40,279 nt of DNA from Thermoplasmata archaeon. Lineage in GTDB: Archaea; Thermoplasmatota; Thermoplasmata; Lutacidiplasmatales; UBA184. The notes under the pieces are model-generated. The model saw nothing but the letters and a program-made list of their open reading frames with translations, ran no database searches and was not told the DNA's origin. Position 1 is the first letter of the stretch. Each line of letters starts with the position of its first letter. Where the stretch lies: positions 1 to 40,279 of the forward strand of contig JAKIWX010000006.1 in assembly GCA_022749845.1 (NCBI GenBank), read 5' to 3'. The position numbers and the translations under genes were made by a program. Below are positions 24,525 through 32,959 of the stretch, in pieces.

Positions 24525-24641
24525 AACCCTGGCCCGGCGGCCATTCCGCGCTCCATCCTGGCGGGTTCCGTCCCGCGCGAATCGAGGGTGAGGCGAAACG
24601 CCCCTTTCCTTACCGACCGTTTCTTACCCTCCGTTTCCGAC

Positions 24642-24647
24642 CTTAAG
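24642..24647 (+). promoter_or_regulatory. TATA-like element of the PolB2 cassette
   Basis: CTTAAG within GACCTTAAGCGG, centred about 32 bases before the ATG at 24677. It is the only AT-rich block in the last 40 bases before the cassette, and is probably the sole promoter of the three-gene operon. Confidence 0.5.
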
Positions 24648-24676
24648 CGGCCACGACCCCGTCTTCTCCCGTTACC

Positions 24677-25516
24677 ATGTTCGAGGTCGAGAGCCCCCAG
24701 TATGAGCTTCCGGCGACCCGGCCGGGTTCCTCGGCGATCCTCCTGCCTCGCCCGCTCCTACGGCCCGCCTCGGAGCTCGCGCGAGCCCCGCACGGGCGCC
24801 TCTTCCCGCTCGCGCCCCACCTCTACAGCTGGCTCGAGCGCCGGTTCGCCCCGGGCGAGGCGACGTACCTCTCGGGACCCGCCGGGGCGGTCCACGGCTT
24901 CGTCTCCTTCCTGCTCGCCGCCGTCGCGGCGGCGGAGCGCACCGTCTCCCTCCGGGACGGGGCGAACCGGTTCTCGCCGTACGCCATCGCCACCCTCGCG
25001 CGGCGCTGGGACGTGCCCGTGGAGGATCTGCTCCTGCGCATTCGGCTCGCCCGCGCCTTCACGGCGCACCAGATGGTGACGCTCGCCGAGACCTGGCGGG
25101 ACGACGAGGTCGGTGAGTCGACGCCCGCCGACCTCCTCGTGGCGGGAGACCCTGCGCTCCTGTTCGCCGAGGAGGAGGTGGAACCCTACGAGCGGGCGGC
25201 GCTCGTTCCGTACGTCGCGCGCTGTCTCAAGGATCTCCTCCGGGTCACGAACCTCCCGCTCCTCCTCGTGCGGTACTCCTCCCTCGGGGATTTCGAGTGG
25301 GAAGGAGGGGGCGTTCCGTTCCACGAGGTGCTCACGCTCCGCCCGAGCGAGTCGGGCGGCGTGCTTCTCGAGGCGGGCCGGGCACGGGAGCGGCTCGAGC
25401 TCTTGGAGCTCGCGCCCCACCAGCACCACCTCGAGGAGTACGAGCTGGACCCCGCAGCCGCGGGGGGAGGTGTGGAGCCGTGGGACGGACCGTCCCTACC
25501 TACCGCGATGCCCTGA
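24677..25516 (+). CDS. RadA/RecA-like protein with degenerate ATP-binding motifs (PolB2 cassette)
   Basis: A 279-residue RecA-fold protein. The best family anchors are LRDGANRFSPYAIATLARRW (residues 92-111), matching the 'DTEGTFRPERIxxMA' strand-helix of RadA, and RIRLARAFTAHQMVTL (121-136), matching 'NIxVARAxNSDHQMxL'. The Walker A position reads GPAGAVHG (67-74), so the catalytic Gly-Lys-Thr is missing. The Walker B position (ADLLVAGDPALLF, 151-163) is also altered. It probably cannot hydrolyse ATP in the usual way and may act as a RadA-binding or DNA-binding adaptor (inference). Its 3' end overlaps the next gene by 37 bases, and a family-B polymerase follows. It is the first gene of the operon. 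Confidence 0.72.
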   Translation: MFEVESPQYELPATRPGSSAILLPRPLLRPASELARAPHGRLFPLAPHLYSWLERRFAPGEATYLSGPAGAVHGFVSFLLAAVAAAERTVSLRDGANRFSPYAIATLARRWDVPVEDLLLRIRLARAFTAHQMVTLAETWRDDEVGESTPADLLVAGDPALLFAEEEVEPYERAALVPYVARCLKDLLRVTNLPLLLVRYSSLGDFEWEGGGVPFHEVLTLRPSESGGVLLEAGRARERLELLELAPHQHHLEEYELDPAAAGGGVEPWDGPSLPTAMP

Positions 25517-25776
25517 GCGAGCTCCTTGCCCGGTGGGAACGGGAGTTCGGCCGCGCGCTCACGAGCCCCGCGGACCGGGCGGCGTTCCACGAGCTCGTGG
25601 TGGCCGCCCGCCGGTACGTCTCGCAGGGCACGCTCATGTCGAGCGGGGACCTCGTCGAGCGGGCGCTCCTCTCGGTCCTCGTCGACCTCTTCCGCCGGTC
25701 CCTCGAGCGGGAGTCCGCGCTCCCCGCCGTGGCGGAGCTACCGCTAGAAAGCTTCGCCCCGGACGAGTCCCCGTAG
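25480..25776 (+). CDS. 98-residue helical protein of the PolB2 cassette, unknown
   Basis: Starts at a GTG 37 bases inside the preceding gene and stops 8 bases before the polymerase GTG. Predicted almost wholly alpha-helical: YRDALSELLARWEREFGRAL, ADRAAFHELVVAARRYVSQGTL, and SGDLVERALLSVLVDLFRRSLERES, with an acidic C-terminal tail (ESFAPDESP). I know no named family. Its tight overlap with the RadA-like gene and the polymerase argues that it is a subunit or adaptor of the same complex. A longer in-frame reading back to 25297 is Arg/Pro-rich noise and is not used. Confidence 0.65.
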   Translation: MGRTVPTYRDALSELLARWEREFGRALTSPADRAAFHELVVAARRYVSQGTLMSSGDLVERALLSVLVDLFRRSLERESALPAVAELPLESFAPDESP

Positions 25777-25784
25777 GGAGGGCC

Positions 25785-28085
25785 GTGCCCCGGGGCTGGC
25801 TCCTCGACATCACCTCCTCCCGCGCCGGCGACACGCTGCTCCTGTGGATCCGGGAGCGCGGGGGACCCGTGCACCGCGTCGAGGTCCCGTTCCTCCCGCC
25901 GTTCTACGTGACGGGCAAGGAGGACCGGCTCCGGGAGCTCGGCACGCTGCTCGAGCCCCGCCCCGACGTGGCGAAGCTCGGCGAGGAACCGACCCTCGCC
26001 TCGCTCTTCGAGCCCGAAGTGCCCCCGCGCCCGACGCTCGCCGTCACCCCGAGCTCCCACGGACGGCGCCGGCGCCTCGCGACCGAGATCGACGCCTGGG
26101 GCGGCTGCACCGACTTCCGGCTCTACGACGTCGACGTGAGCGCGCCCCAGCAGTACTACGCGGAGTACGGGCTGTTTCCCGGGGCGCCGGTGGCCTGGAG
26201 CGGCCAGCAGCTCACGGCGCTAGAGCCGGCGGAGGAGCCCGAGTACCTCCCGCCACCGCTCAAGGTGCTCGAGCTCTCGGTCGAGGTGGTGGGGGCGCGG
26301 CGGGGCCGTCCCGCGGAGCCCACCGATCCTGTGGCGCGCGTCCTTCTCGGCGAGGCGGTCGCGGAGGAGGAGAGCGAGAAGGCGACGCTGCTCGCGCTCG
26401 TGGAAGAGTTACGACGGCAGGACCCGGACCTCCTGTGGACGCAGGGCGGGGACCAGTTCCACTTCCCGCAGCTCTACCGACGCGCGATCGCCTCGGGGCT
26501 CGGCCCCGAGGAGTTCCACCTGGGGCGGGAGCCCGCCCCGTTCGGGCTCGGCCGCGTCGGCTCCTCCTACATGAGCTACGGCCGGATCTACCACCAGGCG
26601 CCCGCCTTCCCGCTCGCCGGCCGGTTCCACCTCGACATGAACGAGCGGTTCGTCCAGGACGTCTCCCTCGCCGGGTTCCTCGACATCGCCCGCATGTCGA
26701 GGCTCGGACTGCAGACGGTCGCCCGCCAGTCCCCGGGGACCGCCTTCTCGGCGATGGAGATCGCCCGGGTGCTCGCCGACGGCTACCACGTGCCGTGGAA
26801 GAAGAACCTCCCCGAGCGGCCGAAGAGCGCGCGCCGGCTCGTCGCCGCGGACCGCGGGGGGCTCATCCTGACGCCCCCCGTGGGCCTGTTCGAGGAGGTG
26901 GACGAGTTCGACTTCGTCTCCCTCTACCCGTCGATCATGGTCGAGCACAACCTCTCGGTCGAGACGCTCGACTGCCCGTGCTGCCCCGAGAGCCCCCACG
27001 TCGCCCCGGGGCTCGGCTACCGCTCCTGCACCCTCCGGGACGGGCTCGTCCCCCGGACGCTCCGGCCAATCCTGTCGCGGCGCCGGTACTTCAAGCGGCG
27101 CAAGAAGGAGACGACGGGAACGGAGAAGGAGCGGTACACGGAGCTCGGCAAGGCCTGGAAGTGGGTGCTCGTCACGAGCTTCGGCTACCAGGGGTACCGC
27201 AACGCGAAGTTCGGCCGGATCGAGTGCCACGAGGCGATCAACGCCTACGCCCGGGAGCTCCTCGTGGAGCTCATCGCGACCGCTCGGAGCGCCGGCTGGG
27301 AGGTGGTGCACGGGATCGTCGACTCGCTGTGGATGCTCCCGCCCCCCGGGGGAGACCCCGAGGCTTTCTGCGCCGAGGTCTCCGAGCGGACCCGCCTCCC
27401 GCTCGGCTACGAGGGACGGTACCGCTGGATCGTGTTCCTGCCGGACGCGGAGTATGGCCTCGGCGTGCCGCAGCGATACTACGGGCGGTTCCACGACGGG
27501 GAGTTCAAGCTCCGGGGGATCGAGGTGCGGCGGGGGGACACGTGCGAGTTCGTACGGACGACGCAGGAGGCGGTGCTCGAACTGCTCGGTAAGGCAGCGA
27601 ACGGCCACGAGTTCCGGGCCGCGATTCCCCGGGCGCTCGCGCTCGGCAAGGCCCGGGTCGACCGGCTCGCGGAGGGGAGCTGGCCGCGGGAGGAACTCCT
27701 CCTCACGCAGCGGATCGCGCAGTCGCTCGAAGAGTACCGCCTCCTCTCGCCGACCGTCGCCGCGCTGCGGCAGCTGAGGGAGGTCGGGATCGTGCGCGAG
27801 CCGGGCCAGGAGGTGAGCTTCCTCCTGATGGAGCGTTCCTCCCGGGACTGGCGGCGCAAGGCGCGGCCGGAGCAGCTCGTCACGGGGGAGGAGGACTACG
27901 ACGTCCAGGCGTACGCAGAGCTCCTCGCCCGGAGTTTCGCGACGCTGTTCGCCCCGTTCGGTCTCACCGAGGAGCGGGTGCTGCAGGGCTGGGGTTACCC
28001 GTACCGCGCCGCGCCCACGCCGAGCGTACGGGACCACAGGTCGCTCGAGTATCGGGGGCAACGGGGTCTCTGGGGCGCAACTTAG
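25785..28085 (+). CDS. Degenerate family-B DNA polymerase (PolB2 type)
   Basis: A 766-residue family-B polymerase. Motif A is intact: DFVSLYPSIM with Asp376. Motif B keeps Lys459 and the Gly-Tyr-x-Gly-Tyr end but reads VTSFGYQG where active enzymes have NSxYGYxG. Motif C is HGIVDS (509-514) instead of YGDTDS: the first Asp is Ile511, the second (Asp513, the usual metal ligand) remains. Exo I reads LELSVEV (162-168), so the 'DxE' exonuclease pair is broken. Four cysteines after motif A (397, 399, 400, 415) could bind a metal. The GTG at 25785 is chosen because the open frame upstream is antisense-like noise overlapping two genes. It is likely a translesion or accessory polymerase. Confidence 0.85.
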   Translation: MPRGWLLDITSSRAGDTLLLWIRERGGPVHRVEVPFLPPFYVTGKEDRLRELGTLLEPRPDVAKLGEEPTLASLFEPEVPPRPTLAVTPSSHGRRRRLATEIDAWGGCTDFRLYDVDVSAPQQYYAEYGLFPGAPVAWSGQQLTALEPAEEPEYLPPPLKVLELSVEVVGARRGRPAEPTDPVARVLLGEAVAEEESEKATLLALVEELRRQDPDLLWTQGGDQFHFPQLYRRAIASGLGPEEFHLGREPAPFGLGRVGSSYMSYGRIYHQAPAFPLAGRFHLDMNERFVQDVSLAGFLDIARMSRLGLQTVARQSPGTAFSAMEIARVLADGYHVPWKKNLPERPKSARRLVAADRGGLILTPPVGLFEEVDEFDFVSLYPSIMVEHNLSVETLDCPCCPESPHVAPGLGYRSCTLRDGLVPRTLRPILSRRRYFKRRKKETTGTEKERYTELGKAWKWVLVTSFGYQGYRNAKFGRIECHEAINAYARELLVELIATARSAGWEVVHGIVDSLWMLPPPGGDPEAFCAEVSERTRLPLGYEGRYRWIVFLPDAEYGLGVPQRYYGRFHDGEFKLRGIEVRRGDTCEFVRTTQEAVLELLGKAANGHEFRAAIPRALALGKARVDRLAEGSWPREELLLTQRIAQSLEEYRLLSPTVAALRQLREVGIVREPGQEVSFLLMERSSRDWRRKARPEQLVTGEEDYDVQAYAELLARSFATLFAPFGLTEERVLQGWGYPYRAAPTPSVRDHRSLEYRGQRGLWGAT

Positions 28086-32194: not shown

Positions 32195-32959
32195 CTACCT
32201 CATTAGCGCCTGAAACCGCTCGGCCGACGTGGGTCCGAACCCTTCGAAATGGTTGTTGAAGAACGCCCAGGCGTCCGGAAGGCCCGAGGTGCGGAGCGTC
32301 TCGGCCCACCGCTTCATGTCGCTCGTCCGGTCGACCCGTATCTCCCCGTGGAGGTCCGACGGAACCGTCTCGTGGTCGCCGATGAACCGAAGGTAGGCAA
32401 AGTCGCCCGTGACGACGGGGGGCACGTCCACGAAGGTGAGGCTCGACCAGCAGAGTGCGATCTTCCGCTCCCCCAGGAGGCGGCCAAGCCACGCAAGCCC
32501 TGCCTCCGTGAACCAGCCCTTCTCCCGCACTTCCAGCACGTACTGCGGGCCGGGCGGCAGGGCCTCGACGAAGCGGGTGAGGTAGAGGGCATTCCCCCGG
32601 TCGAGCGAGGGAGGGGCGCGGAACCACGGGGCGAACTGTGCCACGATCGGGCCCAGCTTTGGGCCGAGGAGGCGGGCGCACTCGACGAAGGAGGAGATCG
32701 CCTCGGGCGAGAGATCCTTCTTCGCGTCGAATAGATCGCGCGGGAGCTTGAGCGCGAACCGGAAGCCGTCCGGCGTCTTTTTCGCCCAGCCCCTGACGAC
32801 GTAGGGATTCGGGGCGGCGTAGTAGGTCGAGTCCACCTCCACCGTGTTGAACTTCGTCGCGTAGAAGGCGAGCCGGTCCCCGTCCGCGATCCCCTCGGGA
32901 TAGAATCGGCCCGTCCAGGCAGGGGAGGTCCAGGAGGAGCAGCCGACCCTGAGCTCCAT
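32195..32959 (-). CDS. DUF72 family protein (TIM-barrel)
   Basis: A 254-residue DUF72 protein (YecE family). Hallmarks: ELRVGCSSWTSPAWTGRFYPEG at the start, FYATKFNTVEVDSTYYAAPNP, KTPDGFRFALKLPRDL, GPIVAQFAPWF, VLEVREKGWF, FAYLRFIGDHE and DAWAFFNNHFEGFGPTSA. The fold is a TIM barrel with conserved Glu, Asp and Asn residues inside, but no reaction is established. It stands alone, and a CTAAGG element lies about 31 bases upstream. The preceding ~240 bases to the Fic stop hold no gene. Confidence 0.93.
   Translation of the reverse strand: MELRVGCSSWTSPAWTGRFYPEGIADGDRLAFYATKFNTVEVDSTYYAAPNPYVVRGWAKKTPDGFRFALKLPRDLFDAKKDLSPEAISSFVECARLLGPKLGPIVAQFAPWFRAPPSLDRGNALYLTRFVEALPPGPQYVLEVREKGWFTEAGLAWLGRLLGERKIALCWSSLTFVDVPPVVTGDFAYLRFIGDHETVPSDLHGEIRVDRTSDMKRWAETLRTSGLPDAWAFFNNHFEGFGPTSAERFQALMR

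Follow-up and report, generated by a model that had tools for sequence, protein, structure and literature searches.

The window analysed here, a 40,279-nucleotide (nt) stretch of DNA from a Thermoplasmata archaeon (contig C116 of a 1.83-Mb metagenome-assembled genome, MAG), carries three adjacent genes for an inactivated RadA (iRadA), a small helical protein (PPB2) and a family-B DNA polymerase (PolB2). This cassette very probably encodes an archaeal PolB2 mutasome, that is, a three-gene operon for a lesion-bypass complex which is switched by an operator that, in related genera, also precedes nrdJ (class II ribonucleotide reductase). What appears to be new is the palindromic control site in the sequence before the cassette. 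We favour, with reasonable though not high confidence, the view that this dyad is the operator of an SOS-like Thermoplasmata regulon which places the PolB2 mutasome and the class II ribonucleotide reductase (RNR) under one regulator and which stays with the mutasome genes even in split or relocated operons. The site and the genes are arranged as follows:

24595..24623, + strand: dyad operator GAAACGCCCCTTTCCTTACCGACCGTTTC (GAAAC-N19-GTTTC), the sole match in the window, conserved in the iRadA promoters of the family
24632-24637, + strand: extra half-site CGTTTC after the dyad
24642..24647, + strand: TATA-like box CTTAAG (direct reading), at a distance of 18 nt from the preceding operator and 30 nt from the ATG of iRadA
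24677..25516, + strand: iRadA, 279 amino acids (aa), ATG start; RadA fold without the Walker A Lys (predicted ATPase-dead) and without the N-terminal RadA domain (profile, AlphaFold and Foldseek)
25480..25776, + strand: PPB2 (arCOG07300-type), 98 aa, GTG start, small and helical, N-terminus MGRTVPTYR (alignment of 30 relatives)
25785..28085, + strand: PolB2 family-B DNA polymerase, 766 aa, GTG start (PF00136, NCBIfam, PDB profiles and motif table)

The dyad, which is absent from the first-pass annotation, was found by aligning the sequence upstream of iRadA. Its general form is GAAAC-N15..19-GTTTC, and a TATA-like box lies 17-20 nt downstream of it. The CTTAAG promoter proposed in the first-pass annotation was located at 24642-24647, and relatives fill the same position with CTTTAGAG, CTTAAG or TTATAG. 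In the 40 kb of the window only this one match occurs, where 0.13 would be expected. The genomes sampled are fragmented assemblies, mostly MAGs, and gene starts were taken from a simple codon-usage caller. Among 34 family copies of the iRadA promoter the dyad is exact in 22 and has at most one mismatch in 27. All 24 exact dyads in 588 kb around polB2 lie in PolB2-operon promoters (22 before iRadA and 2 before a lone polB2). Genome scans yielded 56 sites versus 9 for reversed-pattern controls in 12 genomes and, for the N17 form, 37 sites versus 4 in 33 genomes. Moreover, when all 1024 five-mers were tried as dyads with a spacing of 15-19, GAAAC ranked top in both promoter sets (polB2 22, nrdJ 20); the runners-up reached 9 in the polB2 set (CCGGG) and 12 in the nrdJ set (AAACG, an overlapping form), then 5. 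Since the genomes are related and not independent of each other, fewer independent events underlie these promoter counts than the figures suggest. Despite this kinship, two unrelated promoters share the dyad, and its position is conserved while the sequence of its spacer is not. A block of 93% identity between the window and the sister genome G027 spans 24584-28077; it starts shortly upstream of the operator and reaches the end of polB2, and operator and genes thus form a module that behaves as a unit. The operator is described neither in PMC4104785 nor in PMC11791011, the latter of which (2025) makes no mention of promoter, operator or ribonucleotide, and the open-access literature held nothing relevant on a damage promoter motif in Thermoplasmatota.

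The promoter of nrdJ (identified by NCBIfam, loci located by tblastn) represents the largest second class of dyad sites. Here the exact dyad, with a spacing of 16-17, was present in 20 of 47 genomes, and 31 of 47 had it with at most one mismatch; 21 of 36 nrdJ loci carried the dyad versus 0.1 expected in shuffles. In the polB2 operon as well as in nrdJ, the dyad stands 17-20 nt before the TATA-like box. That the cassette and nrdJ share this sequence suggests a replication-stress regulon. In the window's own genome (G000) and in G011 and G027 the nrdJ dyad has one mismatch. A dyad also lies shortly before the CTP synthase gene pyrG in G000 and its sister G027 only (L103:2001-2026 and L104:2001-2026); no other pyrG locus examined has it, and pyrG was therefore rejected as a conserved member of the regulon. 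Further dyads were seen 56 nt before a creatininase-like gene (L176 and L187, two genomes) and before VOC-family genes (L179, L196 and L118, three genomes). These genes were not counted either, as the dyad recurs in only two to three genomes.

Dismantled operons were also observed. In genome G001, iRadA (L111) and polB2 (L050) are on separate contigs and have an operator each. Genome G017 has a lone polB2 (L040), 83% identical to that of the window, with operator and promoter directly before it; iRadA and PPB2 are missing from this place, iRadA was not found in this 87% complete genome, and a second PPB2 gene has an operator of its own. The contig is 5 kb long, and what is seen in G017 is either the natural loss of two subunits or an artefact of assembly. 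The dyad thus follows the parts of the split operon, which argues for a function.

The proteins themselves belong to a system known from other archaea. Makarova et al. linked PolB2, arCOG07300 and an inactivated RadA in 2014 (PMC4104785), and Timinskas et al. named PPB2 and iRadA and modelled a pentamer in 2025 (PMC11791011). The testable sequence hallmarks from these papers are found in the window, and therefore we regard the cassette as the known iRadA-PPB2-PolB2 operon. Shared features comprise the three families, a gene order that is one published variant, the MGRT arm, the I-x-D form of motif C, the D(K/R) motif, the inactive RadA fold and the association with DUF72 genes. The window differs in its Thermoplasmata lineage, in a putative FxxA-like motif without Phe, in an operator-bearing PPB2 paralogue at a separate locus, in the dyad operator and in the absence of an adjacent orc1/cdc6 gene, a neighbour which is frequent but not defining; the best orc1/cdc6 matches of the genome are on contigs C128 and C80, not on C116. 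The first-pass annotation, in which the polymerase was a degenerate archaeal PolB2 with an associated RadA paralogue, agrees with both papers. The damage-inducible Sulfolobales member that it mentioned is likewise confirmed by genetics cited in PMC11791011, which found Sulfolobus Dpo2 to be damage-inducible and required for targeted mutagenesis.

Read directly from the sequence, the first two genes overlap by 37 nt (25480-25516) and the last two are 8 nt apart (25777-25784), exactly as had been annotated before. The three genes are neighbours in related genomes too, a check proposed on first pass: iRadA, PPB2 and PolB2 occur together and in the order of the window at 35 of the 41 loci that were sampled from the window's Thermoplasmata family, two of these with a gene-sized insert between PPB2 and PolB2. 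This adjacency is far beyond chance, and the same order was also found in other families of the class. In nearly all of the 61 family genomes PolB2 is present in addition to the replicative PolB.

For the first protein, a RecA fold lacking the Walker A Lys had been proposed, and the comparison by profile and structure recovered a RadA fold. The single iRadA sequence gave a weak score versus Rad51 (0.088), and a profile built from an alignment of 32 relatives matched RadA at 2.6e-9. With the AlphaFold model (pLDDT 76.5, pTM 0.74), all 50 PDB matches listed by Foldseek were structures or complexes of RadA, RAD51 or DMC1, the best with an E of about 3e-11. As modelled, iRadA has the RadA/Rad51 ATPase-domain fold. 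It reads SGPAGAVHG in place of Walker A, and the Lys is absent at this position in all 32 relatives. Only the ATPase-type domain is present, the N-terminal domain of RadA is missing, and residues 1-36 are of low confidence in the model. An ARAFTxxQ(M/L)V stretch is near-invariant in the alignment, and in our reading it would be the RadA pocket for the FxxA motif of the neighbouring protomer. The N-terminus of PPB2 follows the pattern M/V-GRT; across 30 relatives, M1, G2 and R3 are invariant and T4 hardly varies. Three main helices are predicted. A sigma-factor-like fold was not recovered for PPB2, for which Foldseek gave no match below E = 0.6.

PolB2 matched PF00136 (1.3e-20), an NCBIfam model of the PRK05761 type (6.5e-110) and PDB profiles of archaeal PolB (1e-74 to 1e-76). 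Its motifs are DRGG (356-359) before motif A (DFVSLYPS), motif B (KWVLVTSFGYQGY) and motif C (HGIVDS), with DRGG and HGIVDS conserved across the alignment. The altered polymerase motifs noted earlier are real in that the first Asp of the motif C DxD is lost, but all 30 sequences share D376, the Asp of motif A, and D513, the second Asp of motif C. As both metal-binding Asp are kept, PolB2 should be able to polymerise. For the proofreading exonuclease, described as disabled in this system and noted as broken on first pass, the evidence is a Pfam profile score of 13.9, below the cut-off of 23. The stretch just before DRGG, which may correspond to the published FxxA-like iRadA-binding motif, reads F-K/R-x-A/G in most relatives of the type I group described below and P-K-S-A (RPKSA) in the window. 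A clamp contact via a C-terminal QxxL tail is possible. PolB2 as the sole lesion-bypass polymerase was rejected: all 16 genomes examined also have the Y-family polymerase DinB, and therefore PolB2 is not the only possible lesion-bypass enzyme.

In Thermoplasmata families f5, f20 and f25, PolB2 open reading frames (L271-L279 and L281) carry in-frame inserts of 165-190 aa exactly in motif B, at the point corresponding to T464 and S465 of the window (after VT and before SFGYQGY). They show an N-terminal Cys, a TPxH block and usually a junction of HN with C (GN with S, or Q with S or C, in some) and are apparent mini-inteins. Inteins in PolB2 are not mentioned in PMC4104785 or PMC11791011.

The following mechanism would fit these data; for complex geometry, lesion bypass and damage induction it draws on studies of other archaea. 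The three genes would be transcribed from the TATA-like box as a (nearly) leaderless operon and yield a complex of PolB2, iRadA and a PPB2 trimer, which may synthesise across DNA lesions or elongate primers with mismatched ends at stalled forks, without proofreading. The non-ATPase iRadA would grip PolB2 as one RadA protomer grips the next, and the MGRT arm of PPB2 could fit between iRadA and PolB2 near the DNA. Timinskas et al. proposed such an error-prone complex of PolB2, iRadA and a PPB2 trimer, a heteropentamer, from AlphaFold models (PMC11791011). There, a RadA-type oligomerisation motif mediates the binding of iRadA to PolB2, and the pairing of PolB2 with true RadA gave poor models. The docking of the RadA-like protein on RadA filaments, as suggested on first pass, is not what these models show. 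We infer that the dyad GAAACG-N-CGTTTC, just upstream of the TATA box and the B recognition element (BRE), switches expression, either from an activator position or by a repressor that blocks TFB. With the same operator before nrdJ in genera g5 and g6, error-prone synthesis and the supply of deoxyribonucleoside triphosphates (dNTPs) would rise together under replication stress, presumably through a common regulator.

Several observations count against this interpretation. Exact nrdJ sites are confined to g5 and g6, and genus g3 as well as the divergent genus g4 lack the operator. As for the regulator, a self-regulated Orc1/Cdc6 was rejected, since the orc1/cdc6 promoters read had no dyad with up to one mismatch, and so was NrdR (TIGR00244), which is absent in 18 of 18 family genomes. 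Moreover, the aromatic residue of the putative FxxA-like motif is Pro in the window's PolB2, and the RadA-like grip may therefore differ here. A rival reading concerns the polymerase. According to a view held from 2008 to 2014, PolB2 would have no catalytic activity and the complex would play a structural or regulatory role, such as the regulation of forks or origins; the 2014 paper raised regulation or alternative initiation (PMC4104785), and the lost motif C Asp, the altered context of motif B and the exonuclease match below the cut-off are in line with it. We consider this unlikely, as the metal-ligand Asp D376 and D513 are retained in all 30 sequences, the Sulfolobales Dpo2, which has the same I-x-D change, shows activity and is needed for targeted mutagenesis (PMC11791011), and motif B holds in-frame inteins in several other families at an insertion site usual in active enzymes.

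The dyad, too, can be read in other ways. It often follows a DUF72 gene in g5 and g6, and several copies extend into longer palindromes, as expected of a terminator or hairpin of the upstream gene or of a chance G+C-rich palindrome. Such an origin is very improbable, however, since the upstream genes differ (in the window, G017, G001 and at nrdJ) whereas the distance to the TATA-like box is steady within a few bases, no other exact dyad occurs in the 588 kb around polB2, and GAAAC is the single outlier of 1024 dyads in two unrelated promoter sets without a conserved spacer. A possible, though less probable, alternative to damage control is a nucleotide-pool (RNR) operator, with the mutasome co-opted into dNTP homeostasis. 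The dyad is indeed common to nrdJ and, in G000 and G027, pyrG. However, it is kept most consistently at the mutasome genes, including split ones, the other pyrG loci examined have none, and NrdR, an RNR regulator, is lacking in 18 genomes. Damage and dNTP control are also not exclusive; in E. coli, RNR is SOS-controlled.

Among characterised systems, the Sulfolobales Orc1-2 regulon, in which dpo2 genes are damage-induced, shares a TTTC element in damage-responsive promoters (the hexamer ANTTTC of the DNA damage-responsive element, DDRE), which also marks the promoter of its regulator. In contrast, the Thermoplasmata element is a dyad of (C/T)GTTTC and GAAAC(G) at nearly fixed spacing, the hexamer begins mostly with C or T rather than A, and orc1/cdc6 promoters lack the dyad. 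E. coli Pol V (UmuD'2C-RecA), the analogy drawn by Timinskas et al. (PMC11791011), likewise combines an error-prone polymerase, a RecA-fold partner and a small oligomeric accessory protein with an N-terminal arm; here, however, the polymerase is of family B instead of Y, the partner is a dedicated dead RadA and not the active recombinase, and the accessory protein is unrelated. The first-pass annotation had compared the complex with ImuA-ImuB-DnaE2. The error-prone three-protein complex agrees with the published one, but there it was compared with Pol V, and the resemblance, three genes that include a RecA-like adaptor and an error-prone polymerase, is one of analogy only: the cassette has neither a Y-family ImuB nor a C-family polymerase, its polymerase being of family B.

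DUF72 genes were found at 26 of 41 family polB2 loci, mostly directly upstream of iRadA, in line with the reported enrichment of this family near polB2 (PMC11791011). The copy in the window is probably outside the PolB2 operon:

32195..32959, - strand: DUF72 gene (PF01904, 2.8e-51), 4.1 kb downstream of the cassette

In the PolB2 tree, close relatives fall into two groups, with some deep forks weakly supported. Type I (most of g5 and g6, plus G023) mostly lies between a DUF72 gene and a HEAT-repeat gene, and type II (the window, most of g1, g2, g3 and g7, and G048) mostly at other locations. A second, unlinked PPB2 gene stands beside a DUF72 gene in G000, G027 and G017 (L102:1379-1864, - strand; L105:1998-2651, + strand; L108:1409-1870, - strand). 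These genes lack a free MGRT start, each is behind its own GAAAC-N18/19-GTTTC dyad, and in L102 and L105 CTTAAG follows. L102 is the DUF72-HEAT locus still present in the window's genome; its PPB2, with the promoter GAAAC-N19-GTTTC...CTTAAG, has its nearest match in the type I PPB2 of G023 (79% over 72 aa). We read it as a likely remnant of a displaced type I cassette, which possibly still supplies an armless PPB2 subunit.

Genus g4 (L075-L078) has a highly divergent variant without the operator, in which PolB2 identity drops to about 28-30%; L076 has the genes in the order iRadA-like, DUF72, PPB2, PolB2, DUF72. The cassette of G019 (L045) is nearly identical to g3 copies although the genome, with 7% contamination, was placed in g7, which points to either contamination or recent transfer. 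In G027, a 39-codon remnant of a PolB2 C-terminus (L039:12351-12467, 59% identical) follows the intact polB2 at a distance of about 3 kb, which suggests a past duplication or rearrangement.

To our knowledge, no SOS-like system is known in most archaea. The characterised damage regulon in the literature covered here is the crenarchaeal Orc1-2 regulon, and the dyad marks a mutasome and a dNTP enzyme in another lineage. The operon splits and deletions in G001 and G017 offer natural genetic tests of which subunits the polymerase needs. Furthermore, the dyad can serve as bait for finding the regulator and makes regulated PolB2 mutagenesis outside Sulfolobales a testable question.

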